This document shows, piece by piece, positions 11,100 through 61,058 of a stretch of DNA of 64,000 bases (within the stretch, counting starts at the first letter, position 1; each line of letters starts with the position of its first letter). This DNA is from Sodiomyces alkalinus F11. Lineage: Eukaryota; Ascomycota; Sordariomycetes; Glomerellales; Plectosphaerellaceae. The notes below the pieces were generated by a model, which was not told where the DNA came from, did no database searches, and saw only the letters and a list, made by a program, of their open reading frames with translations. Made by a program: the position numbers and the translations under genes. The stretch covers positions 3,894,274 through 3,958,273 of the forward strand of contig NW_021167079.1 of NCBI RefSeq assembly GCF_003711515.1, given 5' to 3'.

Positions 11100-14000
11100 G
11101 AGGCACTTAATAGATATACTCTATAACACGCAGTAGTATAGAGCACTACTACGTTAGAATACGACTTAATAAATATAAGATAAACGTATTATTAGATATA
11201 AGCGTAGTAGGAAACTTTATCTTACTAGTAGCCGTAGGAAAGTTCTTTATACCCTAGGTTAGAAAACACCTGGAAGACGAGTATAAAATTACTCCGTATA
11301 CAGGAAAGAACTAGTCCTAAGAAGAAGTTATTATTAGCTAGGAGACTATACACCTTTAGGTTAAAATTCAGAATAAGACTAAAGTAATAAAGTTCGATAT
11401 ATACGATATAGGCTATAAGGACATTATCCTTAGTAAGCTATAGTTTAACGAGTAGAATCCCGATATAGACTAGAAGCTTAGCTAGCTTTAGTGGAGATTA
11501 GAGAGTAAGTAAAAGACTATAAAGGAAACCTTACCCGATCCTAATATCCGTCGAAAATAGTAGAAAGACTTACCGACGAAGGAGCCTTAGGAAGACTTAA
11601 ATAGCCGCTAAAAGTTAGGGACTAAGGCGAGAAAAGACTAAAAAACGTTAAGATAATAGCGACGGTATAATAACCGACACGTAATAAATATTATTAAAGG
11701 AATCTATTAGATTATCTAAGTAGAGAGAGGACTCGTAGAAGGCGATCACGATAGACTCGCTAAGGTATTACCAGAATACCGTAAATACGGAAAGCTATTT
11801 ACCGAAAATCTAGAGACTGGATTACCGAAATATCGACACTACGATTATAAGATACCCCTTAAGGAAGGCACGCACCCGAAATTCTTTCTAATCTACGGAC
11901 TAAATCAAAAGGAATTAAATACCTTAGAAGAATATCTTAAAGAAATATTAGTAAAAGGCTATATTAGAGTATTATAGTCACTAGTAGGATACCCTATCCT
12001 ATTTATACTAAAGAAAAACGGTAAGCTACGGCTATATATCGACTATTAATAACTTAATAATATAATAATTAAGAACCGCTACCTATTACCTTTTATCTCG
12101 GAGATACGAGATTAGTTAGTTAGAGCGTAATAGTTTATAGCACTCGACTTAAAAGGAGCCTATAACTTAATCAGGATTAAGAAAGGAGAAGAGTAGAAAA
12201 TAGTATTCCGAATAAAGCGAGGATATTTCGAGTACCTCTTTATACCCTTTAGATTAATAAATACGCCGGTATTATTCTAAACGCTTATGAACGATATCCT
12301 AAAACAGTATCTAGACCACTTCGTTATAGTATACCTAGATAATATCCTTATTTTTTCTTAGATACTCGAAGAATATTAATAATACGTTTATATAATTCTA
12401 TAACTCCTATAAAACGCCGACCTACTAGTTAAACCAGAAAAGGTATAATTCTACACGTAAGAAGTTAACTTTTTAGGGTACACGATACGACCTAATAAAA
12501 TCTATATAGATAAGGCGAAAATCTAATACGTCTTTAAATAGCTATAGCCGTAGAATGTTCGCGATATTTAGTCTTTCCTCGGACTAGTTAATTACTATTA
12601 ACGATTTATTAAGGACTATAGTAAGATTACTATCCCCTTAACTCAAGTAACTAAAAAAGGGCTTAACTTCGAATAGAATAAAAGAATATAAGAAGTATTA
12701 TAAGCCCTTAAAGGAAGGGTTACTAGTAAACCTATCTTAGTAATACTAGACCCCGATAAAGAATATAAACTCGAAACAGATATATCCGACTAGGCTCTAG
12801 GAGTATAACTNNNNNNNNNNNNNNNNNNNNNNNNNNNNNNNNNNNNNNNNNNNNNNNNNNNNNNNNNNNNNNNNNNNNNNNNNNNNNNNNNNNNNNNNNN
12901 NNNNNNNNNNNNNNNNNNNNNNNNNNNNNNNNNNNNNNNNNNNNNNNNNNNNNNNNNNNNNNNNNNNNNNNNNNNNNNNNNNNNNNNNNNNNNNNNNNNN
13001 NNNNNNNNNNNNNNNNNNNNNNNNNNNNNNNNNNNNNNNNNNNNNNNNNNNNNNNNNNNNNNNNNNNNNNNNNNNNNNNNNNNNNNNNNNNNNNNNNNNN
13101 NNNNNNNNNNNNNNNNNNNNNNNNNNNNNNNNNNNNNNNNNNNNNNNNNNNNNNNNNNNNNNNNNNNNNNNNNNNNNNNNNNNNNNNNNNNNNNNNNNNN
13201 NNNNNNNNNNNNNNNNNNNNNNNNNNNNNNNNNNNNNNNNNNNNNNNNNNNNNNNNNNNNNNNNNNNNNNNNNNNNNNNNNNNNNNNNNNNNNNNNNNNN
13301 NNNNNNNNNNNNNNNNNNNNNNNNNNNNNNNNNNNNNNNNNNNNNNNNNNNNNNNNNNNNNNNNNNNNNNNNNNNATAGACTTCGTGATAGGATTTCCGA
13401 TATCTAAAGATCTAGTAATAAGAATCGCCTACGATAGCGTATTCGTAATTATCGATCGATTCACGAAATACACTCTTTATATTCTATATATTAAAAATAC
13501 TATAATAAAGGAACTAGCCAGTATCTTCCTCGACCGCCTAATCCGGGATTATAGTATACTATACGAGATTATTATAGATAGAGATAAATTATTCACTAGT
13601 AACTTCTAGAAAGTAGTTATAAGCCAGCTAGGGGCGAAATATAAGTACTTAATAGTATTTCACCCTATAGCCGACGGATAAACCGAAATTATAAACTAAA
13701 TCCTAGAATAATACCTATAATACTACGTAGGATACGAGTAAGATAATTAGGTATAGTACCTACCGCTTATATAATTCGTATATAATAGCTCGTTAAACGA
13801 GTTAATAAAGAAAATACCATTCGAAGTAAACTATAGATATAGTCCGATAGTATTCAGGAAACCTTTAGAAGGACTAGATACGCTAAAAGCAATAAAAACA
13901 GTTAAAAGTATAAATAAACTACACAAAGAACTACGAACTAACCTAGAGATAGTCAGAACACGAATAAGTAAGTACGCGAATCAATTAAGGATTAAGGGAC

Positions 14001-30943: not shown

Positions 30944-31218
30944 TGTCGCACGTCAAATAGCACTTGGATAATTAACTTAGTAGAGCAGAAATCTCGTGTG
31001 TATGTATTATATTAAGTTATATCTGTGTGAGTCTTTTATGCCCCTAATTTTGGGTGGTGAAGACTCTATTATGGGTACTATATTATTTGGATCCTATCCG
31101 GTCTTTTCCGGTATCCGCCCCTGTTATATCCTGATGCCCGAGGTCCGAAGCCCTTAGTTAGAGAGTGGATCCCCCCTGGATCCCCTATAGACCATGTCGT
31201 GGTCCTGCCTATGCGATA
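30944..31218 (+). repeat. solo LTR of the copia copy 1/2 family, TSD AGACT
   Basis: 275 bp from TGTCGCACGT to TATGCGATA, matching the LTRs at 38641, 44781, 51196 and 57197, flanked by AGACT (30939-30943 and 31219-31223). It is the least mutated copy in the window. Its 3' end lies about 495 bp upstream of the karyopherin start, so it could influence that promoter. Confidence 0.95.
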
Positions 31219-38640: not shown

Positions 38641-38914
38641 TATCGCACGTTAAATAGCACTTGGATGATTAACTTCGTAGAGCAGAAATCTCGTGTGTGT
38701 GTATTATATTAAGTTATATCTATATAAGTCTCTTATACCCTTAATTTGGGTGGTGAAGACTCTGTTATAGATACTATATTATTTAGATCCTATCCGGTCT
38801 TTTCCGGTATCGGCCCCTATTATATCCTGATACCCGAGGCCCGAAGCCTTTAGTTAGGGAGTGGATCCCCCCTGGATCCCCTATGGACCACGTCGTGATC
38901 CTACCTATACGATA
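38641..38914 (-). repeat. left LTR (3' LTR) of copia copy 1
   Basis: 274 bp matching 44781-45054. The element reads on the minus strand, so this is the 3' LTR. The adjoining CCCCC tract at 38917-38921 is a G-rich polypurine tract on the minus strand. Confidence 0.93.
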
Positions 38915-38929
38915 TACCCCCTTAGTTAA

Positions 38930-41900
38930 GGTGGGTCTTCCTAGGTTAACTAACTAATTAGAGGCTTCGGTTTAAACTAAACACTCTTAGCTTTTCTATC
39001 GTAAAATCAATAGTTAAGGGGAAAAAAACGCCCTCGTAGAAAGGATCTAAATCCGCCCTATTTAACCATTTAATTTAATTCTATCTTAATTAGTTCCTTA
39101 ATCCTAATTAGCCGGATCTGCTTAATCGGATCTATATCTATCGGATCTACTACGCCCTTGGAGGCCGTCGTCGTTGTTACGGCTATAGCTTTAGCTACGG
39201 CTTTAGCGCGATTAATCTTTTTATACAGTTATTTCCACTACTCGATACGATCCTTTTAATCTGTTAAATTAAGCTATTACTATAGTCTTTTAATCCCCGC
39301 CTCCGGTAATACCTTCGTTAAACCGTCCACGATGATCTCCTTCGTGTTAACGTACGTAACCTTAAAGAGACCTTATTTTACTAACTAGCGCGCCTACTAG
39401 TTATATATATCGATATACCGTAGTCTTATCCGCAGGTGTTATGCCTTCTTATTAATAAGGTTAATAATCTACTAATTATCGTAGTATAGCTATAGCTATT
39501 ATTAATCTAACCGAAGCTCTAAATCCCTTAATATCCGACTAACGAATAACGTCTCTTTAGCGGCCCTTATAAGAGCGATTAGTTCCGATTCTATTAATAA
39601 CGTCGTGACCGTCGGTTATTTACCCGCTTTATAGTTAACGGTGCCACCGAAAAGCTTTATCGTATATCCTTATAAACTTTTACGGTCTGGATTATCCCTA
39701 AAGGACGCGTCGCTTACGGTTAGGAAGAGTCTATCCCCACCGAATTCCAGGTAATAATACCTCGTGTGGTATAAGAATAGCAGCACTTATTAAGCCCTCT
39801 TAAAGTGATTCGAGGAGGGGTTGACGTTATATTAGGAAAGTTTCGAATAGGCAAACGCGATATCGGGTCTTATCACGATAGTAGTATATAGGATAAAACC
39901 GATTATACCCTAATATTAACGGACCTTAGGAATTAACGCGCGTATACTATCGTATAGTATTAACGGCTTTATAGATAATAGGACCTTTAGTGGTTTTCGG
40001 CAGAGTATATCTAGGTAGTATTTAACCGCGATCTTCTTTATATAGGAGGATTATAATAGCTATAACCTATAGGTGGCTTTATCCCTTAGGACCTTAATTC
40101 CTAGGAATTAACGGATTTCTTCGCCTCCTAATACCCTATAGCTCCGCTTAAGGGCGGCCTTAAGGTTATTGGCGTTAGTCTTATAGTCCTTATAGTATAA
40201 AAATCCGATATTATCGACGTAGAAGAATAGGACTAAACCGTCGCGTTTATAATATAGGGGTTATTAGGTATAGCCATGAATTCTATTTTCTATAGCGTGC
40301 CGCTAAGTTCCTCTTACTATAGTAGTAGCGATACCCTTCGACCGAAGAGGGCTTTTCGTAGTAATAGGACCTTACCTAGTACCTTATAGCCTTACAGTAT
40401 CTTTATAAACATCTTTTATTTAAGGCTAGCGTTAACGAACGCGTTAACGGTATCGAACTACCTTATCTCTAGATTAAATCTGGTAGCGATCGCTATAAGT
40501 ATACGGAATAACCGCGATACTAGTGTAACGGCATAGTTATCTTTAGTCTTTAACCGTTTTTATTAATCCCCTCGCACTATACGGCGTGCCTTATACTTAA
40601 GGAGGGTGCCCTTCTTATTGAATTTATATATATATACCTATGTATAGGTAAGGGCTTATTACTTATTAGCCTAATCACCGCCTACCTCTTACTAGTAGCC
40701 TATTTATCGGTAGCCCTTAAGGTATTCCCCCTTAGCCTACAACCACCGCTTCCGTAACGGGTATAGACGTATATCGCGGTGGTAGTTTAGTAGAGGCGGG
40801 AGATCCTCGCGGGTTAGACACGATAAGGAGGCGTTAAAGGGAGAGGGATTTATAGTATTAGCGCCGGTAATATTACCGTTATTAATAGCTTACTTCCTCC
40901 CGCGTATAGGGTTATAAGTCCTTCTAGCGTTAAAGAACGCCTTCTAGGTATTATTATTCTATACCTTCTTAGTTATATATAGGCTTATAATAGTTCTCGC
41001 GATAGATAGGTGCGCGGCCAATAAGCGTGTGGCCGATAAGCGTGTAGCCGATAGGCGTGCGGCCGATAGGCACCCCTTAGGGCTATTTATAGCTATCCGT
41101 TAGTGGTTATCGTGTTCTTCTATCTTAGCGCCCCTAACCACCGCTAACGCTATAAGGAACCCGCGCGCGGGATCTTCCGGGGATATGAAAGGCGTGGGAA
41201 ATAGTTTAAACCTCGTAGTAGTAAACCGTGAAGTGTCCGTAGTAATAGCGGTGGCCTCTCCCGTAGTAATAGCGGTAGTATAGTCTTCTCCTATAGTAAT
41301 AGTAGTATCCGTAGTAATAGCGGTAATATAGTCTATAGTAATAGTAATAGCCTCTCCCGTAGTAATAACGGTGGTGTTAGAGTTACGAGGTTCTAAATCT
41401 ATAGCATAGGTATTAGGCTATAGATTTAAAACCTCGTCTATAGTAATAGTAGTAGCCTTTCTCGTAGTAATAGCGATAGCCTCGCCTTTATCCGTAGTAA
41501 TAGCGGTAGGGTCGCTTTTACCTATAGTAATAACGGTAGCGTTAGAGTCTTCCGACTCAAGATCTAATACCTCTATAGCTATACCCCTTAATAGTAGCCT
41601 ATTCGCGGTCTTATTAGATTAGGTAATATAGATAGATTATAGGCGTTCCCCAATTTCCTTAGCGGAAGCTATAGCTTATAGCGTTTTAATCCTGCTATTA
41701 AATATCTTATCTTCGTTAAAGACTATGTCTCTTATAGTAATAATATCCGTTAGGTGTAGTAGCTAAATACGGAAGCTATTTAAGGATTAGTATCCGATAT
41801 AATAACCGATCTATACGTTCGGTTTTAGCCTTTATAGGCGGTTCCTTTCAGCTTAGGTATCGCGTGTTTTTATAAAGGCTTTATAGCCATAAGCTTATAA

Positions 41901-44600
41901 GTGCGTAAGGTTAGGTTAACGGCCGTGTAGGCCTTTGTATAGCGTTCGCTAGTCGTTAATATATCGTGGCGTCCTATTATATAGATACACGGTAGTCTTA
42001 AAAATCTTAGGCTAGATAGATATAGGCAGATTAGCTCTAATCCTTATAGCCCTCGCCCTTCTCTTAATAATACCTCTAATCCGTTCTATAACGCCGTTTT
42101 AATTCTATAAATATAATACCGATAGCTAGCCTTCTACCCCCTTAGTAGCGAGGAAAATAACGACTTCTAGGTATTAAAATATCTCGGAATCGGCTTATAG
42201 GATATATAGCCGGATATGGAATTAGGTCTTAAGCAGAGTAAAAACGTCTTTTAACGCGTATAGGATAAAGCCTTAGTCTCTTTTCTATAGGTAGTAATCC
42301 TATATATAACTCATATACACGTCTATAACGAATATAACAGACTTATATAGGCCGCCTGCTAACGACTCCGCCTCTTTTAGATCGTGAAAGTTAATAGCTA
42401 GGGCCTCTCCGGGCTTTAACGGGTAAAAGGATAGTATCCGCCGGATCTACATAGGCACTTACGATTACCTATATGCGTTATAGTCTATTATATAAGGTCC
42501 TTTTATCTTTACCCCCTAAATAGCGTCAATAATCTTTGTGAGAGTATTAATGCTATAGTGGCTAAGGCGTTCGTGCTACTATTATACCGTAGTCTTCTAC
42601 GGTTATTGCGGTTATCGTAATCTCCCTTATAGGTTATCGCGCGGGTGCCTTACCGAGACCGCGAATACGGTGGCAGCTATAGCTTCCGCGCGCTCGATTA
42701 TATACTAGCCGTGGATATCTAGTAGCTTATAGATAGGCCGGTTATCGGCGGAGCTAATAATAGTATTATTTACGGTATCCTAGTAGTAACCTTATAGGCG
42801 TAGCTAGTATTATAAGATAATATTAGTAATAAAATCCTTATAGTATATAATATCACGGAGGCGTAATAGCCTCTTTATACCCAATAGGGATTATTCACGT
42901 AGCGTATTATCTCCGTATTCGAGGATAGAAGCCTTATAAGTACCTACCTAAAAGGATAAAGATAAAGTATTCGTGGGTAGTCTAATAGCCGTAAAACGGC
43001 CTTGATTATTAAAGATATAGATTAACGATCCTAAATCTAGGATCGCGTAGTATAATAGCGCTCTAGCTTAGTTAATAGAAAGGGATACCCCTTATCCTTA
43101 TTATAATCTTAATAGTATTATCGTATAATAACGCGCTACCCCTTAGGTTAGGTAGGCTCTTAGTCCTATCGCGGTGATAGATAAGTCTTTATAAACTATT
43201 ATAGTAGTAGGCGTAATATTATAGAGTTAATCTTCCTAGACATCCTTTATCTTATTAGCGGTAGTTGCTATTACTTCCCGCCTTTTCTATATCGCGGTGT
43301 CTACGCGGCTTTTAAAACTATAGTTACGTATTCTCTTTTCTATAACCTTCGTACTATCTTTACGGCCGTACTAAGTATAAAGGCGTATATCCGGCCTTAT
43401 ATATTAATAGGCGGCGGTAGTATAGGGGTTCTTATATATTTTATAGGGCCTCCTTATTATGGGAGGGATAGCCTTTACGGACGTATCGCTATAAGGACGC
43501 TTCTTATTATCTTTATTATTAGTAGTATCCTTAGTATTAGAGACGTTCCTAAGGGTATTAAAAGTGCCTCTCCCGACTCTAGGCTTTATAGTAAAGGATT
43601 ATAGGCTCTTTATATTACTAAGAACCGCCATTACAGCCTTTACGAAGTCGTTAATCGTTAGCTTATTTTCCGTAATCTTATCGTAGTTATTAACTAGGTA
43701 GTTATTACTCTATTCCTGGGTAATAGGTCTAATAGCTTTTAACGCGTTTTCCGCCTAATAGTCCGCGCTTAATAGCTTTAAAACGCCTATATATTTATAG
43801 TGTATTATCGCTGTTTTCTAGCTTACTACTAAGGCGTTTATATCCTTAGGTATAGCCTTTATAGGCGTGGTGTATCGTCGGTATAGGACTAGGGCTTCCT
43901 TATAGAGGTCTATAGGTATTAGTCCTGCGTACGCATATAGGAGGGTAATCTAAGCTTATAGGTTATTTATATTATCGTCCTATAGTTATACGAGGAGGTT
44001 ATATAATATAGTATAGACGGTCCTTTTAATATATAAGCGTACCTCGTTAAACCTTTTCTACTACGCGTTATAGTCTACCTTTTCCTCGCGGTATACACGG
44101 CGATCCTATAGGTAGCGTATACGCCTTTTTTTAAAGAGGTTATTAATAAATATAGGTATCCTTATCGGTGGTTCTTTTATTACGGCCATAACCTTCCGGT
44201 AAGCGGCCGTCTTCCTTTTACCGGTAGCCGTGGCTATTATAATACCGGCCGTGGTAGCTATAGCTATAGTATCCGTGGTATCCGTAGCCTTATCGCCCTT
44301 TAGCGTAATAGTGGAAAATAGAGTAGCCGTGATAATAGAAGATAAGGTAGCCGTGGCCTCCTCCGTATTAGGGTCTACGGCGAGGGCTTTATATTTACGG
44401 ATATTAGGTAGCGTAGGCTTAAGAAGCAGGTAAGTATCGGCCTCCTTATCGCTTAGCTTTAGATTAAGATAGTTTTCTTAGTAAGAGGTAGATTTACCGC
44501 GTATAGCGTGCTCTTATATTACCTAATCCCTTTAATTAATAAGGGTAATAGCGGCCGCCTTCTATTCGGTATTAGATATATTAGAAGATATCTTTACTTA
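38930..44600 (-). pseudogene. copia copy 1 gag-pol relic
   Basis: Minus-strand landmarks: gag with a KYKALAVDPN segment near 44400; GAG-pre-integrase HERLSHYSINTL near 42560; integrase part GVIERIRGIIK near 42090 and a VQIGYYIGY.SLNSFRI block near 41830; a Thr/Ile/Glu-rich linker at 41220-41560; RT with FDTVNAFVNASLK near 40450 and LVLFFYVDNIGFLY near 40232-40195 (DD altered to DN); then YRVLGGEEIRQFLGIKVL near 40140-40085 and RNase H to about 39000. Stops are RIP-type. Confidence 0.85.
41220..41560. repeat. short tandem-like repeat in the copia linker (GTAGTAATAGCGGT units)
   Basis: The unit GTAGTAATAGCGGT and variants recur about ten times with irregular spacing. On the coding strand they give a Thr/Ile/Gly/Glu-rich linker between integrase and RT. 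The same array is at 53710-53990 in copy 2. Confidence 0.75.
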
Positions 44601-44780
44601 TTTATTAGTTAATTAATTAATTAATAGGTAGATTAATAGGTTAATTAATCGCTTAATTACTCTAATTAGGTTAATAGTAATTATTTAAGAGTGCTTATAT
44701 AAACGTAATAACTTTTATAGTAGAATAGGGGTAGCCTTATTAATATCTATTATTTAGGCGTTATAAACCGGGCTTATAAC

Positions 44781-45054
44781 TATCGCACGTTAAATAGCAT
44801 TTAAATAACTAACTTAGTAGAGTAGAAATCTCGTGTATATATATTATATTAAGTTATATCTATATAAGTCTTTTATGCCCCTAATTTAGGTGGTAAAGAC
44901 TCTATTATGGGTACTATATCATTTAGATCCTATCCGGTCTTTTCCGGTATTCGCCCCTATTATATCCTGATACCCGAGGCCCGAAGCCCTTAGTCAGGGA
45001 GTGGATCCCCCCTGGATCTCCTATAGACTACGTCGTGGTCCTGCCTATGCGACA
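44781..45054 (-). repeat. right LTR (5' LTR) of copia copy 1
   Basis: 274 bp, direct repeat of 38641-38914. Its outer ~60 bp are nearly free of RIP changes, while its inner part is mutated. Confidence 0.93.
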
Positions 45055-49921: not shown

Positions 49922-50729
49922 GATAGGGAATTTTTTTTTTTTGGAGGCGTAAGTCAGTGATTGTCGCACCCGAATGACACGGGCGGTCCTGCACGGTGCC
50001 TGCGTCCCTCAACCACCGACGGGAAAGACACGAGAAACAAGTCGGGGGAGTTGTTGGTGGTCGGACTCACCTCATCCTCGAGGATTGTTGTGGCTGGCTC
50101 CACGCCATGGTGCAACGATTGCTTTTTGTCCTTGTTGGATATGGAGATTGACCCGGATGATTGGCCGTCGTCGTCCGCTGGAGATGCAGAGGCTATGCGG
50201 AGCAGAGCTGCAACAGCCGCTTGGAGTAGGGTACGCGGTCGTCCAACTTGTATATCGTGGTTATCGAAGAGAGAATTGACAGGCGGGATTTGATGATAGT
50301 GGCAGGAGTAAAAGCACGGAGTATTTCGAGGTAATTAACAAAATATAACGGTGTATGTGGTCGGTACTCTGCAGTGCCGCGCGGCTTACCGACGGATCAG
50401 GAGGGAAGAAGGGGCAAAACGGCCGAGGAGTTGAAGCTTGACTCGTTCGTGGGTTTCGCTCCTTAGTGTCTCTTATACAGGAACAGACGCCGCAGTAAGT
50501 GAAGGACCGCAGTTTGGCAGAGGGCAAGAAGAAAAGAAGAAAAGCCCAGTCGAATTCGGCCTGTCCCTAAAAAAGAAAACAAAACGACAACGAAAACGGT
50601 ATCCCGATTGAATGTGGAAGTTTGCATGCGATGTAGATGTACCGGTACTCTGTGAGGTCCGAATGGCGGGGAGCTGCGTTTTGGGGCTGACCTGGTACTC
50701 CGCACAAATTTGCACCTGTCTCGGAGCTT
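49922..50729. other. upstream region of the small membrane gene, no gene seen
   Basis: Host-type DNA with a T-tract at 49931-49942 in the leader of the minus-strand gene. Several overlapping open frames, none with a recognisable domain. TACTC(C/T)G motifs occur at about 50363, 50645 and 50694. Confidence 0.6.
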
Positions 50730-50735
50730 AGAATA

Positions 50736-50773
50736 AGGGACTGACTCCCCGACATATACGTTTTGTCTCCGCG
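50736..50773 (-). mobile_element. terminal fragment of MITE A, separated from its body by later events
   Basis: AGGGACTGACTCCCCGACAT matches the TIR of MITE B (59988-60408) and of MITE A's body (58569-58967). It is preceded by AGAATA (50730-50735), whose reverse complement TATTCT precedes the other end of MITE A at 58563-58568. The first 22 bp (50736-50757) plus 399 bp at 58569-58967 give 421 bp, the length of MITE B. The last 16 bp (50758-50773) are the duplicated target of the SINE-like insertion. Confidence 0.85.
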
Positions 50774-50854
50774 GGGGATGGTGGAGTAGTACACCACCTG
50801 GACTAACCTCTTTTCTAATCCCTAAGAGGTCGTAGGTTCGAATCCTGCTCCCCC
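50773..50854 (+). ncRNA. tRNA-like RNA polymerase III head of a SINE-like element
   Basis: Contains a perfect A box TGGTGGAGTAG (50779-50789, fits TRGYNNARNNG) and a B box GGTTCGAATCC (50835-50845). It can fold cloverleaf-like: GGGGGA with TCCCCC, GGTGG with CCACC, CCTCTT with AAGAGG, GTAGG with CCTGC. The anticodon-like loop is 11 nt and an 8-nt linker follows the D-like arm, so it is not a standard tRNA. Confidence 0.7.
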
Positions 50855-51195
50855 TAACCTATTTTCCGATAGGTACGTACCTTAGGTAAAGGGGGCTAGT
50901 AGTGGCCCCTAAACCCCTGCTAAGTAGATAACCAATAGCCTGGGCACCTATCCTTATCGAGACAGCAGAATAGCCTAAAAAGGAAGGGGATTCCTTACTA
51001 AGCTACTACCGGCATAGGGTTATCATAAAGGGGGGGAAAAGGGTATAGGGCGCTACCGGGTACTCTTAGGTTTTTATCCGCAAGGTTTTTCCTAGGAGGA
51101 GATTTACTAAAGTGAAGGGGTTGGCGTATATGGCATTTCTTAGTAAATACTCCCACGCACTTTCCCTATCCCGAAAGTGGTAGTAGCGTGTCTTA
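50774..51195 (+). mobile_element. SINE-like element, 5' part
   Basis: Starts with the tRNA-like head, then an unrelated body of about 340 bp without coding, cut at 51195 by copia copy 2 (target TCTTA, 51191-51195). Its continuation is the reverse complement of 58968-59064, which ends in a run of A. Joined length is about 515 bp. No second copy was seen in the window. Confidence 0.65.
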
Positions 51196-51469
51196 TATCG
51201 CATGTGAAATAGCACTTGGATAATTAACTTAGTAGAGCAGAAATCTCGTATATATATATTATATTAAGGTATATCTATATAAGTCTCTTATACCCTTAAT
51301 TTAGGTAGTGAAGACTCTATTATAGGTACTATATTATTTAGATCCTATCCGGTCTTTTCCGGTATCCGCCCATATTATATCCTAATACCCGAGGTCTAAA
51401 ACCCTTAGTTAGAGAGTGGATCCCCCCTAGATCCCTTATAGACTCTATTATAGTCCTGCCTATACGATA
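51196..51469 (-). repeat. left LTR (3' LTR) of copia copy 2
   Basis: 274 bp, starts TATCGCATGT and ends TACGATA. It is followed by a CACCCCCCC tract, which is a polypurine tract on the minus strand. Confidence 0.93.
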
Positions 51470-51479
51470 CACCCCCCCA

Positions 51480-54400
51480 GTTAAGGTGGGTCTTCCCAGG
51501 TTAACTAACTAATTAGAGGCTTCGGTTTAAACTAAACGCTCTTAGCTTTTCTATCGTAAAATTAATAGTTAAGGGAAAAAACGCCCTCGTAAAAGGGATC
51601 TAAATCCGCCCTATTTAACCGTTGAATTTAATTCTGTCTTAATTAGTTCCTCGATCCTAATTAGCCGGATCTACTTAATCGGATTTATATTTATCGGATC
51701 TACTACGCCCTTAGAGGCCTTCGTAGTCGCTACGGCTATAGCTTTAGCGCGTTTAATCTTTTCGTATAGCCGTTTAGACTACTTAATACGATCCGTTTAA
51801 TCCGTTAAATTAAGCTATTATTATAGTCTTTTAATCCCCGCCTCCGGTAATACCTTCGTTAAACCGTCCGCGATTATGTCCTTCGTATTAACGTATATAA
51901 CCTTAAAAAGACCTTATTATACTAACTAGCGCGCCTATTAGTTATATATATCGACGTACCGTAGCCTTATCCGTAGGCGTTATACCTTTTTATTATCGAG
52001 GTTAATAGTCTATTAATTATCGTAGTATAGCTATAGTTACTCTTAGTCTAACCGAAGCTCTAAATCCCTTAATATCCGGCTAACGAATAACGTCTTTTTA
52101 GCGGCCTCTATAAAAGCGAGTAGTTCCGATTCTATTAATAACGTCGTGACTATCGGTTACTTACCCGCCTTCTAGTTAACGGTTCCCCTAAAGAGCTTTA
52201 TCGTATATCCTTATAAACTTTTACAGTCTAGATTATCCTTAAAGAACGCGTCGCTTACTATTAGGAAAAGCCTATCCCCGCCGAATTCAAGGTAGTAGTA
52301 TCTCGTATAGTATAAGAATAGCAGCGCTTATTAAGCCCTCTTAAGATAGTTAAAGGAGGGATTAATATTATATTAGGAAAGCTTCGAATAGGCGAACGCG
52401 ATATCGGGTCTTATTATAATAGCGGCGTATAGGATAAAACCGATTATACCTTAGTACTAGTGGACCTCGGGAATTAACGCGCGGGTGCCGTCGCGGGGTA
52501 TTACCGGCTCCGTAGATAATAGGACCTTTAATGGTTTTCGGCAGAGTATATCTATATAGTATTTAACCGCGACCTTCTCTACGTAGGAGAATTATAATAG
52601 CTATAGCCTATAAGTGGCTCTATCCCTTAGGACTTTAATTCCTAGGAACTAACGGATTTCTTCGCCTCCTAATAACCTATAGCTTCGCTTAAGGGCGGCC
52701 TTAAGGTCGTCGGTGTTAGTCCTATAGTCTTTATAGTATATAAGTCCGATATTATTAACGTAGAAGAATAGGATTAAACCGTCGCGGATTATAATATAAG
52801 GGTTATTAAGTATAGCCGTGAATTCTATCCTCTATAGCGTGCCGCTAAATTCCTCTTATTATAGTAATAGCGATACCCTTAAGCCGAAGAGGGCTTTCCG
52901 TAGTAGTAGTACTTTACCTAGCACTTTATAGCCTTACGGTATTTTTATAAATACCTCTTCTTTAAGGCTAGCGTTAACGAACGTATTAATAGCGTTAAAC
53001 TACCTTATCTTTAGGTTAAATCGGGCGGCGATCGCTATTGTATACGGAAGGACCGTGAGACTAGCGTTACGACGTAGTTCTCTTTAGTCTTTAACCGTTT
53101 TTATTAATCCTCTTAGACTATAAAGCATGCCTTATACTTAAGGAGGGTGCCCTCTTTATTATATTAATAGGTATATACCTACCTATAGGCGAGGACTTAT
53201 TACTTATTAGCCTAATTACTACTTACCTCCCGCTAATAGCCTATTTATTAATACCCCTTAAGGTATTCCCCCTTAGCCTATAATAACCGCTCCCGTAATA
53301 GGTAAACGCATATATTATGGTGGTAGCTTAGTAGAGACGGGAGGTCCTTACGGGTTATATACGATAACGATAGCGGCTAAGAGGTATAAGGGGAATCTAT
53401 AGCACTGATATTATTATTAATAGCTTACTTCCTCGCGCGTATAGGGTTATAAGTTCTTTTAGCGTTAAAGAATACCTTTTAGGCATTATCGTTCTATACC
53501 TTCTCGGTCTTATAGATACTTATAATAGATAGGCGCGTGGGTAATAAGCGCGTAGCCGACAGGCACCCCTTAAGGGTATCCCCGGCTATCCATTAATAGT
53601 TATTATATTCTTTTACCTTAACGCCCTTAACCACCGCTAACGCTATAAGGAACGCGCGCGCGGGATCTTCCGGGGATATTAAAGGCGTAGGAAACGGTTT
53701 AAACCTCGTAATAGTAAACTATAAAGTGTCCGTAGTAATAGCGGTACCCGTAGTAATAGCGGTAATATAGTCTATAGTAATAGTAATAGCCTCTCCCGTA
53801 ATAATAGCGGTAGCGTTAGAATTATAAGGTTTTAAATCTATAGCCTAGGTATTAGGCTATAGATTTAGAATCTTATCTATAGTAATAGTAATAGCCTCTC
53901 TCGTAGTAATAGCGACGGCCTCGCCTTTATCCGTAGTAATAGCGGTAGTATCGCCTTTACCCGTAATAATAGCGGTAGCGTTAAAGTCTTCCGACTTAAG
54001 ATCTAATACGTCTACGGCTATACCCCTTAATAATAGCCTATTCGTAGTCTTATTAGATTAGATAATATGGATAAATTATAGGCGTTCCCTGATTTCCTCC
54101 GCGGAAGCTATAGCTTATAGCGTTTTAATCCTACTATCGAATATCTTATGTTTATTAAAGAGTATATCTTTTATAGTAATAATATCTATTAGGTATAATA
54201 GCTAAATACGGAAGCTATTTAAGGATTAGTATCCGATATAATAACTAATCTATACCTTTAGTTCTAACCTTTATAGGCGGTTTCTTTTAGCTTAGGTATC
54301 GCGCGTTTTTATAAAGGCTTTATAGCTATAAGCTTATAGGTACGTAAAGTTAGGTTAACAGCCGTATAGGCCTTCGTATAGCGTTTACTAGTCGTTAATA

Positions 54401-56990
54401 TATTATAGCATCCTATTATACAGATACATGGTAGTCTTAAAAGTCTTAGGCTAGATAAATATAGGCAGATTAGCTCTAATCCTTATAGCCCTCGCCCTTC
54501 TCTTAACTATACCTTTAATCTATTCTCTAACGCAGTTTTAATCCTATAAATATAGTACTAATAGCTAGCCTTCTACCCTCTTAGCAGCGAGGAAAGTAAT
54601 AACTTCTAGGTACTAAAATATCTCGGAATCGGCTTATAGAATATATAGCTGGATACCGAATTAGGTCTTAAGTAGGGCAAAAACATCTTTTAAAACGTAT
54701 AGGATAAAGCCTTAGTCTTTTTTCTATAGGTAGTAATCCTATATATAACTTATATACACGTCTATAACGAATATAATAGACTTATACAGACTGCCCGCTA
54801 ACGACTCCGCCTTTTCCAGATTATAAAAATTAATAGCTAAGGCCTCTCCGGGCTTCAACGGGTAAAAGGATAGTATCCGCCGGATCTACGTAGGTATTAA
54901 TAATTACCTATACGCGTTATAGTCCGTTATACGAGGTCCCTTTATCTTTACCCCCTAAATAGCATCGACGATCTTCGTAAGAGTATCGGTACCGTAATAG
55001 CTAAGGCGTTCGTGCTACCGTTATACCGTAGTCTTCTACGGTTACCGCGGTTATCATAATCTCCCCTACGGGTTATCGCGCGGGTGCCTTACTAAGACCG
55101 CGAACACGGTAGCGGCTATAGCTTCCGCGCACTTAATTATATACTAACCGTGGATATCTAGTAGCTTATAGATAGGCCGGTTATTGGCGGAGTTAATAAT
55201 AGTATTATTTACGGTATCCCAGCGGTAACCTTATAGGCGTAGCTAGTATTCCGAGATAATATTAATAACGAATTCCTTATAGTATATAACGTTACGGAAG
55301 CGTAATAGCCTCTTTATACCTAATAGGGATTATACACGTAGCTTAACGTCTCCGTATCCGAGGATAGAAGCCTTATAAGTACCTACCTAAAAGGATAAGG
55401 ATAAAGTATCTATAAGTAGTCTAATAGCCGTAAAACAGCCTTAATTATTAAAGATATAAATTAACGATCCTAAATCTAGTATCGTATAGTATAATAACGC
55501 TTTAGCTTAGTTAATAAAAAAGGATACCCCTTATTCTTATTATAATCTTAATAGTATCGTTATACGATAACACGCTACCCCTTAGGTTAGGTGGGCTCTT
55601 AGTCCCGTCGCGGTAACGGATAAGTCTTTATAAACTATTATAGTAGTAGGCGTAGTATTATAAAGTTAATCTTCCTAGACTTCCTTTATCTTATTAGCGG
55701 TAGTAGTTACTACTTCCAGCCTCTTCTATATCGTATTATCTACGCGGCTTTTAAAACTATAGTTACGTATCTTCTTTTCCGTAGCCTTTATAATATCCTC
55801 GCGACTATACTAGGTATAAGAGTGTATATCCGGCCTTATATACTAATAGGCGGCGGTAGTATAGGGGTTCTTATATATCTTGTAAGGCCTCCTTATTATA
55901 GGAGGGATAGCCTTTACGAATATATCGCTACGAGGACGCTTTTTATTATCTTTATTATTAGTAGTATCCTTAGTATCGGGGAGGTTCCTAAGGGTATTAA
56001 AGGTGCCTCTCCCGACTCTAGGCTTTATAGTAGAGGATTATAGGCTTTTTATATTACTAAGAACCGCATGTAAAGCCTTTACGAAGTCGTTACTCGTTAG
56101 CTCGTTACCCGTAATCTTATCGTAGTTATTTACTAGGTAGTTGTTACTCTATTCCTAGGCAATAGGTCTAATAGCTTTTAACGCGTCTTCTACCTTAATA
56201 GTCCGCGCTTAATAGCTCTAAAAGGCCTATATATTTATAGTATATTATCGCTATTTTCTAGCTTACTACTTAGGCGTCTATATCCTTAGGTATAGCCTTT
56301 ATAGGCGTAGTGTATTATCGGTATAGGACTAAGGCTTCCTTACGGAGGTCTATAGATATTAGTCCTATATATATATATAGAAGAGTAATCCAGGCCTATA
56401 GGTTATTTACGGTATTATCCTATAGCTAGGCTAGGAGGCTACGTAATATAGTATAGATAGTCCTTTTAATATAGGAGCGTACCTTATTAAACTCCTTTTA
56501 CTACGCGTTATAGTCTGCCTTTTCTTTATAGTATACACGGCGATCTTAGAGGTAACGCGTATACCCCTTTTTAGAGAGGTTATTAATAGATATAGGCGTC
56601 CTAATTATTAGTTTTTTTATTACGGCTATAATCGTAACCTTTTAGCGGGCGGCCGTGCTTTTCTTACCGGCGGCTATAGCCGCTGTAGTAATAGCTATAG
56701 TAGCGGCGGTATCTGTGGCGTCCGTGGCCTTATCGCCCTTTAGCGTAATAGTAGAAGATAAAGTAGCCGTGGCCTCCTCCGCCGTATTAGAGTCCACGGC
56801 GAGGGCCTTATATCTATACATATTAGGCGGTATAGGTATAGGGAGGAGATAGGCGTTAGCCTCCTTATCACTTAGCTTTAGATTAAGATAGTTATCCTAG
56901 TAAGAGGTAGATTTACCGTGTATAGTATACTCCTATATTACTTAATCCTTTTAGTTAATAAGGGTAATAGCGGCCGCCTTTTATTCGGCG
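51480..56990 (-). pseudogene. copia copy 2 gag-pol relic
   Basis: Minus-strand coding collinear with copy 1. The RT catalytic block near 52776-52742 reads FYVNNI (both Asp of the YVDD-type box changed to Asn). Integrase, linker (53710-53990) and gag regions are in the same order. It carries more RIP stops than copy 1 in places and is dead. Confidence 0.85.
53710..53990. repeat. short tandem-like repeat in the copia copy 2 linker
   Basis: GTAGTAATAGCGGT-type units, corresponding to 41220-41560 in copy 1 but with fewer units, so unit number differs between copies. Confidence 0.7.
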
Positions 56991-57196
56991 TTAGATATAT
57001 TAGAAGATATCTTTACTAGTTTATCGTTTATCGGTTAGTTAATTAATAGGTAGGTTAATTAATCTCTTAATTACTCTAATTAGATTAATTATAGTTATTT
57101 AAGAGTGTTTATATAAATATAATTACTTCTTTATAGTAGAATAAGGGTAGCCTTATTAATATCTATCTTTTAGACGTTATAAGCCGGGCTTATAAC

Positions 57197-57470
57197 TATC
57201 GCACGTTAAATAGCACTTAGATAATTAACTTAGTAGAGTGGAAATCTCGTGTATATATATTATATTAAGTTATATTTATGTAAGTCTCTTATACCCTTAA
57301 TTTAGGTAGTAAAGACTCTATTATAGGTACTATATTATTTAGATCTTATCCGGTCTTTTCCGGTATCCGCCCCTATTATATCCTAATACCCGAGGTCCGA
57401 AGCCCTTAGTCAGGGAGTGGATCCCCCCTGGATCCCCTATAGACCACGTTATAGTCCTGCCTATACGATA
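57197..57470 (-). repeat. right LTR (5' LTR) of copia copy 2, inversion breakpoint
   Basis: 274 bp, starts TATCGCACGT and ends TACGATA. It is followed by GTCCG, the reverse complement of CGGAC that follows the inverted LTR at 59065-59338. Confidence 0.93.
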
Positions 57471-57667
57471 GTCCGTGCTAATCGATAATTATACTCTAGG
57501 ATAAAGCAAAGGCTCCTCCGCCTTATACAGCTTCTTCCTAAAAGTGGCACTGGTCGCCGTACTCCGCAGTTGCTGTCGGTCTGCACTTCTCTGTCCAGTC
57601 AAGTAATAACGGAGCAAGCAGACGGAGTCCTTGGGCACTATAAACGCAGTCGAAGACTAAAAAAAGG

Positions 57668-57674
57668 AAAAAAA
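57668..57674 (-). terminator. poly-T RNA polymerase III terminator of tRNA-Gln
   Basis: Seven T on the minus strand, 13 nt after the tRNA 3' end; a second T7 follows at 57659-57665. Confidence 0.8.
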
Positions 57675-57687
57675 GGCGGTATCATAA

Positions 57688-57758
57688 GGTCCAACCAGGA
57701 ATCGAACCTGGATTACGGGAATCAAAATCCCATGTCCTAACCATTAGACCATTGGACC
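57688..57758 (-). tRNA. trnQ: tRNA-Gln (anticodon UUG)
   Basis: 71 nt without CCA. All four stems pair: acceptor GGTCCAA/TTGGACC, D stem GTCT/GGAC, anticodon stem TGGGA/TCCCG with loop TTTTGAT (anticodon TTG, reads CAA), and T stem CCAGG/CCTGG with loop TTCGATT. No intron. It reads on the minus strand but would be on the plus strand in the reconstructed ancestral order. Confidence 0.96.
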
Positions 57759-58568
57759 TCTCTTTTTTCGAGGCGAAGAGCACAAGGCGCCAAGCTCGAT
57801 CATCTTCTGTGAAAATATTTCGTTTTTTAGAAACCTCGTAAGTATGAGAAGGGACTCGTGATCAAATCTTCTTGAATACCACGCGTAAGAATAAATACAC
57901 TTTCAAATGCGGACGGATAATTGCACCAGGGTTAGGAGTGGCGGCTCGTCCTTTGTCCCCTCGGTATTCGCTCGTGTCTACTTCTGTCGGTACCCAGATA
58001 GCTTAAAGAACGGTAAGAGCCTCTACGCGGGAGAATATGTGAGAATTTGGGAGATGCAGGGGTTAATAAGCGCGACAAGATAGCTATGGGCGAAGGGGTG
58101 AGCAGACGCGACCATCCAGCAAAAGAATAGCTTATGTGTTGGCCATCCGTCCGAACACCATCCCCCCAATATAACTACCGGCGTTGAGCTTTGCTTACTG
58201 CGTCGACTGCTTTCCCTTCTGCTTGTCGTTCAAATGTGCCCGTTGCCCGGCTCTCTTCATACGCCTGACGCAAGTGAAACGCAGGTTGGCCGATATGTAG
58301 GCGGAATCGATGAGCACTGTTGTATGTTAATATACGCGAGTTATTCATCAGCTTTCGACTTCTGTTCTGCCTACTGTACATCTGTTGTTTTGGAATTAAT
58401 AAGCTTTAATGCCTAAGTATAGAGATGTTAAGGCTCTGTGGGTGGCGGCCCAGAGACTACGGAGTAATTACAGAGGGTTGAAGGTCTTTGGCTGGGAGCT
58501 TGTTCTGGTACGCATTGTTTTGGTCTGTCCAGGTTAATAGGTGGTAATCCAGACCCTGTAGTTATTCT

Positions 58569-58967
58569 AGGGAATGACTCCCCGATATATAAGTTATGTC
58601 CCAGCGATATGTAAACCCACTTATAAGTGGGGCTATTAAGATAAGATTACCGTATATAAGTATCCTCTATAATCTGTATATTCAGCCCGAGTAGAATTCT
58701 AGGTATACTCGTTATTGTATTATATAGGGAAGGTTAGCCTGGTTAATTAGCGATATTATTAATATTATCGGTTAGCTTATTGAATTAACGATATAGCTAG
58801 TCAGGGCTTATATAATTATTAACGATATTATCGGCTTAAAATATAATAAGTATAAATCTCTAGGTACTTAAGCTATAGATATAGATTATATAGGATACTT
58901 ATATACAGTAATCTTATCTTAATAGCCCTACTTATAAGTGGGTTTATATATCGCTAGGATAAAACTT
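58569..58967 (-). mobile_element. MITE A, main body (one terminus displaced to 50736)
   Basis: The left end, AGGGAATGACTCCCCGATAT, is preceded by TATTCT. Subterminal inverted repeats include ACCCACTTATAAGTGGG. The interior matches MITE B (59988-60408) in opposite orientation. The right terminus is missing its last 22 bp, which lie at 50736-50757. Non-coding. Confidence 0.88.
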
Positions 58968-59064
58968 TTTTTTTTTTAAATTCAGGTTTATTAAAGTCCG
59001 TATACAACCCTAAAGTTATAATAGACTGTTCGGAGGTACCGAAAGGTATAAACTAGGTATAAGA
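58968..59064 (-). mobile_element. SINE-like element, 3' part with poly(A)
   Basis: On the minus strand it starts TCTTA (the duplicated copia target), runs 87 bp and ends in a run of ten to twelve A that abuts MITE A. With 50774-51195 it makes one element with a tRNA-like head and poly(A) tail. Confidence 0.65.
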
Positions 59065-59338
59065 TATCGTATAGGCAGGACTATAACGTAGTCTATAGGG
59101 GATCTAGGGGGAATTTACTCCCTAACTAAGGGCTTCGGACCTCGGGTATTAGGATATAATAGGGGCGGATACCGGAAAAGACCGGATAGAATCTAAATAA
59201 TATAGTACCTATAATAGAGTCTTCACCACCTAAATTAAGAGTATAAGAGACTTACACAGATATGACTTAATATATTACATATATACGAGATTTCTACTCT
59301 ACTAAGTTAATCATCTAAGTGCTATTTGACGTGCGACA
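59065..59338 (+). repeat. solo-type copia LTR in inverted orientation, inversion breakpoint
   Basis: 274 bp, reverse complement of the copy 1/2 LTRs (starts TATCGTATAGG, ends GTGCGACA). Flanks TAAGA and CGGAC do not match each other but are reverse complements of the two flanks of copia copy 2. Confidence 0.93.
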
Positions 59339-59391
59339 CGGACGAGCTTGAACGGTAGAATGTTATTCCAGCATAAATAAGGACTAAGGTA

Positions 59392-60631
59392 AGTCAGACC
59401 CCCCCTTTCTGGCCTATACCCCATTTTGGCCCCCTAAACCACACCAAAAAACGGGATTTCGTACCCCTGTTATTTCACTAACCGTAAAAGGAAACCCTAT
59501 AAAGTTAAGATATTATATAGATAGTTATACGGTTATTAGATATATAATATTATTCTTTCTATATACTAAAGCTATAAGCTAGAATTAGACTTAGAAGTTA
59601 GCTATTCTTATCTGTCAGTGTTGTCTAGTAATTTATTAGTTAACCTTAATCGAATAGAATATTCTATAATAAATTACTAGGACTAAAACACTCGAAGTAC
59701 TATATCTTAAAAATCTTACAAAAAGTCGATATAATCTATATATTAGGTCGATAGTCTATATTATATATTAGCTTCTAAGTTTTTTAAGAGAACCCTTTTT
59801 TTAATAAACTTTTATAGAGAAGAAACTTAATACTATTGTATAAGATTAAGTATAGTATATTATATAAGTCGGACTTTACTTTTAAATAGTTCGTAATTTA
59901 TACCTATTTTTAATATAAAATAGCTATAGTATACTACTTATCTTAATTTATTATAGAACTTTATCTGTTCTTAAGGTTTACTAGTAAAGGGAATGACTCC
60001 CCGATATATAAGTTTTGTCCCAGCGACATGTAAACCCACTTATAAGTGGGGCCACTAAGATAAGATTACCGTATATAAGTATCCTATATAATCTGTATAT
60101 ATAGCCCGAGTACCTAGAGATTTATACTTATTATATTTTAAGCCGATAATATCGTTAATAATTAAATAAGCCCTGACCGGCTATATCGTTAATTAAACGA
60201 GCTGACTGACGATATTAATAATATCGCTAATTAACCAGGCTGACCTTCGCTACGTGATACTATAACGAGTATACCTAGAATTCTACTTGGGCTATACATG
60301 CAAATTATATAGGATACTTATATACGGTAATCTTATCTTGATGGCCCCATTTATAAGTGGGTTTACATATCGCTGGGACAAAACTTACATATCGGGGAGT
60401 CAGTCCCCTAGTAAATCGCTAGATAATACGAATAGATTAAAACAGGTAACTTCTAAGTCTAGTTCTAGCTTATAGCTTTACAATATATAAAGAATAAAGT
60501 TATATATCTGATAACCGTATAATTATCTATAAAATATCTTAATTTTATAGGGTTTCCTTTTACGGTTAGTGAAATAACAGGGGTACGAAATCCCGTTTTT
60601 TGGTGTGGTTTGGGGGGCCAAAATGGGGTAT
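59392..60631. mobile_element. foldback element with arms over 200 bp, carrying MITE B
   Basis: 59416-59640 and 60412-60631 are inverted repeats of each other (for example ATACCCCATTTTGGCCCC and TTATTTCACTAACCGTAAAA on the left, reverse complemented on the right). The left terminus AGTCAGACC after TA resembles the pogo TIR at 36844 (AGTCAAACC), but the right end lacks this stretch. The outer ~120 bp are little mutated while the inner arms and loop are AT-rich. Non-coding. Confidence 0.8.
59988..60408 (+). mobile_element. MITE B (421 bp), TSD TAGTAA
   Basis: Complete element: left AGGGAATGACTCCCCGATAT, right ATCGGGGAGTCAGTCCCC, flanked by TAGTAA at 59982-59987 and 60409-60414. The long subterminal inverted repeats include ACCCACTTATAAGTGGGG. 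No ORF. It serves as the length reference for MITE A. Confidence 0.9.
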
Positions 60632-61058
60632 GGGACCTGGGAGATGTGGCCAGTGTGGCATCTGCTGCGCCGCTGTCTACCTAGGCAGTCACATTATGCT
60701 TCCCTGACGTTTTCTTCACGTTTTCTTCTTGGCTTTGTGGCTGAGGTCTGCCCCCACATCATACAACGCACCTACTCCAGACGTTGAAAGGCCACACATC
60801 CAACCGAGCTTCGAGTCGAAGCACGTTTCCCACCTCTGATAAGCTACCGTCCAACACGCCTCCTCCCCCAACCTTCCCACGTCGCACCGACTTCGCCTGA
60901 CTGCTGATTGCTTTCTCGACGGGCTTTGGACCTCGTCGCGGAGCAACACCTTTCGCGGTTGATTTTTCTCCACAGGGCATCAAATCATCAATCAACCCAA
61001 ACCAGACCCCTCTCCCCTCCCCTTCCTCTTCCTTCCTCTTCCATTCTCATCCTCCAAC
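60632..61058 (+). other. upstream region and leader of SEC24
   Basis: Host DNA, strongly pyrimidine-rich in the last 60 bp (CCCTCTCCCCTCC-type runs), a common fungal promoter and leader feature. No separate gene supported. Confidence 0.6.

Follow-up and report, generated by a model that had tools for sequence, protein, structure and literature searches.

Results

The window analysed here is a 64,000-nucleotide stretch of the genome of Sodiomyces alkalinus F11 (43.4 Mb in 22 contigs), in which repeats of RIP-like composition are accompanied by single-copy islands. The part considered below holds a Copia-family element (copy 2) with its two LTRs (L and R), a lone LTR in the opposite orientation (S), a MITE and a SINE that are each found in two pieces, and a gene for tRNA-Gln. 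All positions in Table 1 refer to the window.

Table 1. Features at and around the inverted segment.
Feature	Position	Strand	Evidence or remark
MITE A target-site duplication (TSD), left copy (TAGAATAA), 8 bp	50729-50736	+	Reverse complement of 58562-58569, 8/8
First 23 bp of MITE A	50737-50759	+	Terminal inverted repeat (TIR) GGGACTGACTCCCCG...
SINE TSD, left copy (GTTTTGTCTCCGCG)	50760-50773	+	10/14 with reverse complement of 58952-58965
Left 422 bp of tRNA-headed SINE, ending in TCTTA	50774-51195	+	Rfam tRNA; 6 other genomic matches
TCTTA, left TSD copy of the insertion in the SINE	51191-51195	+	Reverse complement at 59060-59064
Left LTR (L) of Copia copy 2, probable 3' LTR in coding sense; putative crossover partner if 51470-59064 was flipped	51196-51469	-	92% to 57197-57470
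Body of Copia copy 2, RIP-degraded, apparently minus-coded	51470-57196	-	Dinucleotide ratios; RVT_2 in sister copies
Right LTR (R) of Copia copy 2; putative crossover partner if 57471-59064 was flipped	57197-57470	-	Inverted repeat of 272 nt, 57199-57470 against 59065-59336, 93%; R and S in opposite orientation
GTCCG, displaced duplication of the target site of the lone LTR (CGGAC)	57471-57475	-	
Inverted segment, 1,594 bp minimum; 51470-59064 equally compatible	57471-59064	-	Four duplications and SINE continuity on re-inversion
tRNA-Gln (TTG)	57686-57759	-	ARAGORN; Rfam 66.1 bits
MITE A TSD, second copy, inverted (TTATTCTA)	58562-58569	-	8/8
Remaining 396 bp of MITE A, inverted	58570-58965	-	89% inverted match to MITE B
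Right 94 bp of SINE, inverted; poly-A tail is T12 at 58966-58977	58966-59059	-	8 other genomic matches
TAAGA, displaced right copy of the TCTTA duplication	59060-59064	-	
Lone inverted LTR (S), putative crossover partner	59065-59338	+	
CGGAC, undisturbed TSD copy of the lone LTR	59339-59343	+	

The initial annotation of this DNA described copy 2 as bordered by TCTTA and GTCCG and the lone LTR as bordered by TAAGA and CGGAC, and these letters are present as claimed. The two duplications are exchanged between the elements, TCTTA matching TAAGA and GTCCG matching CGGAC reciprocally at 5/5 bases each, for which the naive probability by chance is 4^-10, or approximately 1e-6. A search for an element interior beside the lone LTR found none. 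When the segment is turned back, four duplications are restored: TCTTA (5/5), CGGAC on the right (5/5, a match that comprises five bases only), the MITE duplication TAGAATAA (8/8) and the SINE duplication (10/14). The inversion with swapped duplications, as originally proposed, is thus recovered, and those duplications that had been named are borne out; the SINE duplication had been missed, and 57471-59064 is not the sole extent that is possible, as a flip of 51470-59064 fits equally.

On re-inversion the two pieces of MITE A amount to 23 + 396 = 419 bp, the same length as MITE B (59989-60407), which has a TIR of 124 nt with 92% identity. The earlier observation that the sum of the pieces equals the length of MITE B therefore stands, with the figures of 22 + 399 = 421 bp replaced, and the restored MITE duplication is 8 bp long rather than 6. 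The MITE match at 50736 overruns the missing end owing to the SINE TSD, which makes up the following 14 bases; likewise, the last 14 bp of the inverted MITE A piece (58952-58965) constitute the second copy of the SINE duplication. Duplications of 8 bp are also found in three of the four other near-full-length copies of the MITE (MITE B, L032 and L034), while in the fourth, L033, the left end is altered and no duplication could be read. An 8-bp target-site duplication is the rule in the hAT superfamily, and the duplications and TIRs together mark the family of MITE A and MITE B as putative hAT-type MITEs. MITE B itself lies in a long-TIR element at 59413-60634 (arms of 227 nt, 89% identity), where its insertion is marked by the duplication CTAGTAAA.

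Taken as its reverse complement, 58966-59059 continues the left flank of copy 2, the two reading as halves of one SINE. Its head is matched by the Rfam tRNA model at 50772-50856 (31.3 bits), and a six-copy alignment displays a tRNA-like head, a poly-A tail, a TSD and dispersed copies, traits that mark the element as an apparent tRNA-derived SINE. Matches to the left and right parts together represent 8 distinct other genomic loci. We compared these loci with a joint query that put 60 bases from either flank together in uninverted order and kept one TCTTA, and the joint was contiguous at 7 of the 8; the eighth locus, L024, starts beyond the joint and gives no reading across it. L010 (contig C5) has 95.8% identity over 120 of 120 bases of the joined flanks and the same TCTTA. 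An uninverted order of TCTTA followed by TACCTAGTTTATACC had been predicted for related strains or species, and it exists with one base changed at this paralogous SINE. At the paralogue L014 a gap of 11 bases adjoins the joint, and the match is 75.8%. Queries built in the present order aligned over no more than the first 62 bases across the border of the SINE and the LTR (with the joint at 60), and over no more than the first 63 bases across the edge of the lone LTR. Re-inversion also pairs GTTTTGTCTCCGCG at 50760-50773 with GTTTTATCCTAGCG, the reverse complement of 58952-58965, at 10 of 14 positions, whereas the sequence as it now stands gives 3 of 14 when read directly. Short duplications directly after the poly-A were seen by eye in five aligned SINE paralogues. 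A second copy of the SINE that is split by a large insertion is present at L086 (C9:220900-228000), where the two parts are separated by ~6.1 kb with a Copia-type RVT_2 match inside; both parts lie on one strand, as expected where no inversion has taken place.

The segment was also said to carry a tRNA-Gln gene with its strand flipped. The gene is present, as detected by both ARAGORN and Rfam, and any inversion of the segment reverses its strand. It is the only one with the anticodon TTG among five genomic matches, the other four having CTG, and RIP-marked transposons lie on both sides of the 1.1-kb single-copy island that contains it. Apart from the four short tRNA-Gln paralogues, the sequence 57471-58562 has no other match in the genome. 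The segment shows no evident gene of greater length; four open reading frames of 56-68 aa overlap it, and we judged these to be products of chance. As tRNA genes have internal promoters, the flip need not alter the expression of tRNA-Gln.

Copy 2 (51196-57470) is RIP-degraded, with a TA/AT ratio of 1.69 and a (CA+TG)/(AC+GT) ratio of 0.18. Several sister copies that share the LTR of copy 2 contain RVT_2 domains (for example at C2:1000198, C3:4484875 and C17:95723); an RVT_2 domain of copy 2 is not among the matches listed, and a Pfam scan of six short pieces of copy 2, five from the minus strand and one from the plus strand, returned no match. The RVT_2 domains of the sister copies lie on the strand that corresponds to minus here, ~1.4 kb from the LTR equivalent to 51196-51469, and the minus strand of copy 2 includes a reverse-transcriptase-like YVNN stretch. 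Because of the strand of these domains and the minus-strand YVNN stretch, copy 2 was probably coded leftwards, with 57197-57470 as its 5' LTR. The sequence GTTATAAGCCCG that follows this LTR may then be the primer site, and the G-rich opposite edge may be the polypurine tract.

The LTR family to which L, R and S belong has 5-bp duplications and TG...CA edges, which in part appear as TA...TA, a RIP-type change. Two other members lie in the window, a solo LTR at 30944-31218 with its own duplication AGACT/AGACT (5/5) and a full copy, copy 1, at 38641-45054 with its own duplication CAAAT/CAAAT (5/5). Elsewhere in the genome, the LTR census drew on 40 listed members of 633 candidates. Partners were sought for 14 of 18 LTRs with a downstream interior and no listed partner, the census of pairs leaving aside the other 4 as well as 8 LTRs with an upstream interior. 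An LTR match was obtained for 6 of the 14, and at the remaining 8 of the 14 loci no partner LTR was found at the predicted place. One of the partners (L096, the partner of L075) is incomplete, which leaves 5 new pairs in addition to 4 already in hand. Both flanks were available for these 9 full-length pairs, and the duplication matches at 5/5 in 2, at 4/5 in 4 and at 1/5 or 2/5 in 3. For three more lone LTRs at the fetched loci the values are 5/5, 4/5 and 3/5 (the one below 4/5 being L007). In total, at least 4/5 is reached by 10 of the 14 insertions of the family other than those at the inversion (6 of 9 pairs, 2 of 3 lone LTRs and 2 of 2 in the window). In a control with flanks of LTRs that are not partners, 90 combinations, of which 9 were void as a flank was not recovered, contained no match of 5/5 and one of 4/5. 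Mismatched flanks alone are not rare in this family, but chance falls far short of explaining neighbours whose flanks match perfectly and reciprocally. No other pair of LTRs with exchanged flanks was seen by eye among the flanks of the fetched loci. The mismatched pairs are L004/L066 (C3:4481005-4486880; 1/5), L079/L100 (C17, from 94331; 2/5) and L063/L091 (C8, from 1184844; 2/5 with three transitions), and the first two may represent further ectopic events.

L, R and S vary at 35 sites, 30 of which involve transitions only. There are 23 mismatches between L and R, 21 between R and S and 27 between L and S. Split at LTR position 137, these numbers are 10, 13 and 14 in the first half and 13, 8 and 13 in the second half. 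A crossover in R predicts that L and R are closest on the left and L and S on the right, and a crossover in L predicts that R and S are closest on the left and L and R on the right. Only the left-half prediction for a crossover in R agrees with the data, and a clean chimeric breakpoint was sought in this comparison of L, R and S and not seen. To identify the crossover partner, the rarer state at each site was scored against 37 other LTRs. The shared rarer states are split among L and R (positions 61 and 112), L and S (55 and 249) and R and S (43 and 84), and thus do not separate a crossover in R from one in L. All six sites are transitions, and the sharing could be a result of convergent RIP.

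Discussion

The exchanged duplications, the restored nesting of four layers and the uninverted order of the SINE in its paralogues are direct observations, and we infer a crossover as their cause. In the proposed sequence of events, the MITE would have been inserted first, with the 8-bp duplication TAGAATAA, and would then have been split by the SINE with a duplication of ~14 bp. An LTR insertion of the Copia family would have split the SINE at TCTTA, and a second LTR would have been inserted in the opposite orientation at CGGAC. The split SINE would at this stage have been followed by ~1.1 kb of single-copy DNA with tRNA-Gln and by the second LTR. A non-allelic crossover between the opposed LTRs would finally have flipped the DNA between them. 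On the evidence of the sequence, we consider it very probable that such an ectopic homologous crossover, between one or the other LTR of copy 2 and the oppositely oriented lone LTR, inverted the intervening DNA. The crossover would have preceded most of the divergence of RIP type among the LTRs. Several findings count against a crossover. The chimeric pattern to be expected in the LTRs is not clean, and 4 of the 14 other insertions of the family lack a duplication of at least 4/5. In addition, L033 has no readable MITE duplication, the gap at L014 adjoins the SINE joint, and the restored CGGAC duplication comprises five bases only.

To call the inversion of 57471-59064 proven, as the initial annotation did, is slightly too strong, as two inversions fit the flanks equally and a misassembly would carry the same signature. 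If the right LTR of copy 2 took part in the crossover, 57471-59064 (1,594 bp) would have been flipped. If it was the left LTR that recombined with the lone LTR, the flip would have comprised 51470-59064 (7,595 bp), Copia body included; CGGAC would then at first have carried the full element, and TCTTA within the SINE a lone LTR. The outer flanks are identical in both cases, and the larger flip equally predicts the restoration of the MITE and the SINE. It is also consistent with L and R being no closer to each other than R and S, and with the rarer states common to R and S at 43 and 84, which lie in the first half of the LTR where they would be expected. However, L and R are the closest pair in that same half (10 mismatches) and have the rarer state in common at 61 and 112, whereas the state shared by L and S at 249 lies in the second half, as a crossover in R would lead us to expect; the state shared by L and S at 55 fits neither crossover simply. 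We therefore weakly prefer a crossover in the right LTR and regard a flip of 51470-59064 as possible but doubtful, this smaller expectation being one part of the confidence that we have in a crossover with either LTR of copy 2.

The remaining explanations dispense with a crossover between LTRs. If the DNA between the inverted LTRs had been placed the wrong way round in the assembly, the same signature would be expected, and runs of N that may represent assembly gaps do occur in the window (26 at 1226-1251 and 565 at 12811-13375) as well as in other loci (10-25). There is nevertheless no N in 50600-59500, both joints would have to be affected by reciprocal errors, and the 274 sites of R and S include 21 differences and no identical run longer than 64 bases, so that reads of at least 100 bases should separate them; we consider such an artefact improbable. 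Aberrant transposition, or an inversion by break repair, could have occurred without LTR recombination, and the available text of PMC2775673 considers the former as an alternative in the case of DNA transposons. The model treated there concerns cut-and-paste transposons, both ends of the present inversion fall exactly at LTR edges, and the SINE and the MITE are restored without deletion or duplication, all of which makes this explanation very improbable. That unrelated flanks merely look exchanged could be argued from the 3 of 9 full-length pairs that fall below 4/5, but two matches of 5/5 combined with the 8/8 match of the MITE speak against coincidence and the unbroken SINE joint seen at 7 of the 8 other loci is decisive, which reduces chance to a negligible probability.

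The ectopic crossover preferred here need not have been a single event. It is conceivable, although we think it unlikely, that the inverted LTR pair acts as a reversible switch, the tRNA-Gln segment flipping repeatedly by LTR recombination and both orientations segregating in the population. The lack of a clean single crossover point in the LTRs would then be due to repeated flips, and the switch would operate in a RIP-marked genome, where the divergence of repeats should suppress such recombination.

One genome here preserves the traces of four insertions (of a hAT-like MITE, a SINE, a Copia-family LTR and a second LTR) and of the inversion that came after them, and the paralogues of the SINE supply the ancestral order. 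From this locus it would appear that a length of 274 bp is enough for LTRs to mediate an inversion where the genome is RIP-marked, and that inversions can be revealed without a relative if the exchange of duplications is considered together with the continuity of nested repeats. No tRNA-Gln(UUG) gene other than that of the flipped piece occurs among the five genomic matches. A literature search for retrotransposon inversions with swapped duplications found none, by which we do not claim that none is in print, and a search for fungal SINEs found none under the terms tried.

The locus can be compared with three systems, one of which is Ty1 of yeast, a host without RIP. In the available part of the work on Galileo in Drosophila buzzatii (PMC2775673), exchanged duplications at opposite copies are treated as a mark of ectopic recombination. 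The Galileo inversions resemble the present one in having opposed element copies at the breakpoints and swapped duplications, and in being ascribed to ectopic recombination. Galileo is a DNA transposon, and according to the same part of PMC2775673 its inversion is chromosomal and polymorphic, with sequenced uninverted chromosomes and chimeric copies. In contrast, the S. alkalinus inversion involves LTRs of 274 bp and spans 1.6 or 7.6 kb, is known from the inverted arrangement alone, and has LTRs without clean chimerism. Rearrangements by homologous recombination between dispersed copies of an LTR element in a fungus are also described for yeast Ty1 in the accessible portions of PMC3102749 and PMC9879454; those are experimental, whereas the event described here is a fossil in a RIP-marked region. 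Cochliobolus heterostrophus is, like S. alkalinus, a filamentous fungus with RIP for which recombination between transposons has been inferred (PMC4112212). In the available text of that study the inference is statistical, made within element alignments with the RDP package, and no recombination is reported in the Copia-1 group, while here a single locus with exchanged duplications bears the evidence. Inversion by recombination between opposed repeats is a known process, of which the S. alkalinus locus is an unusually complete example.
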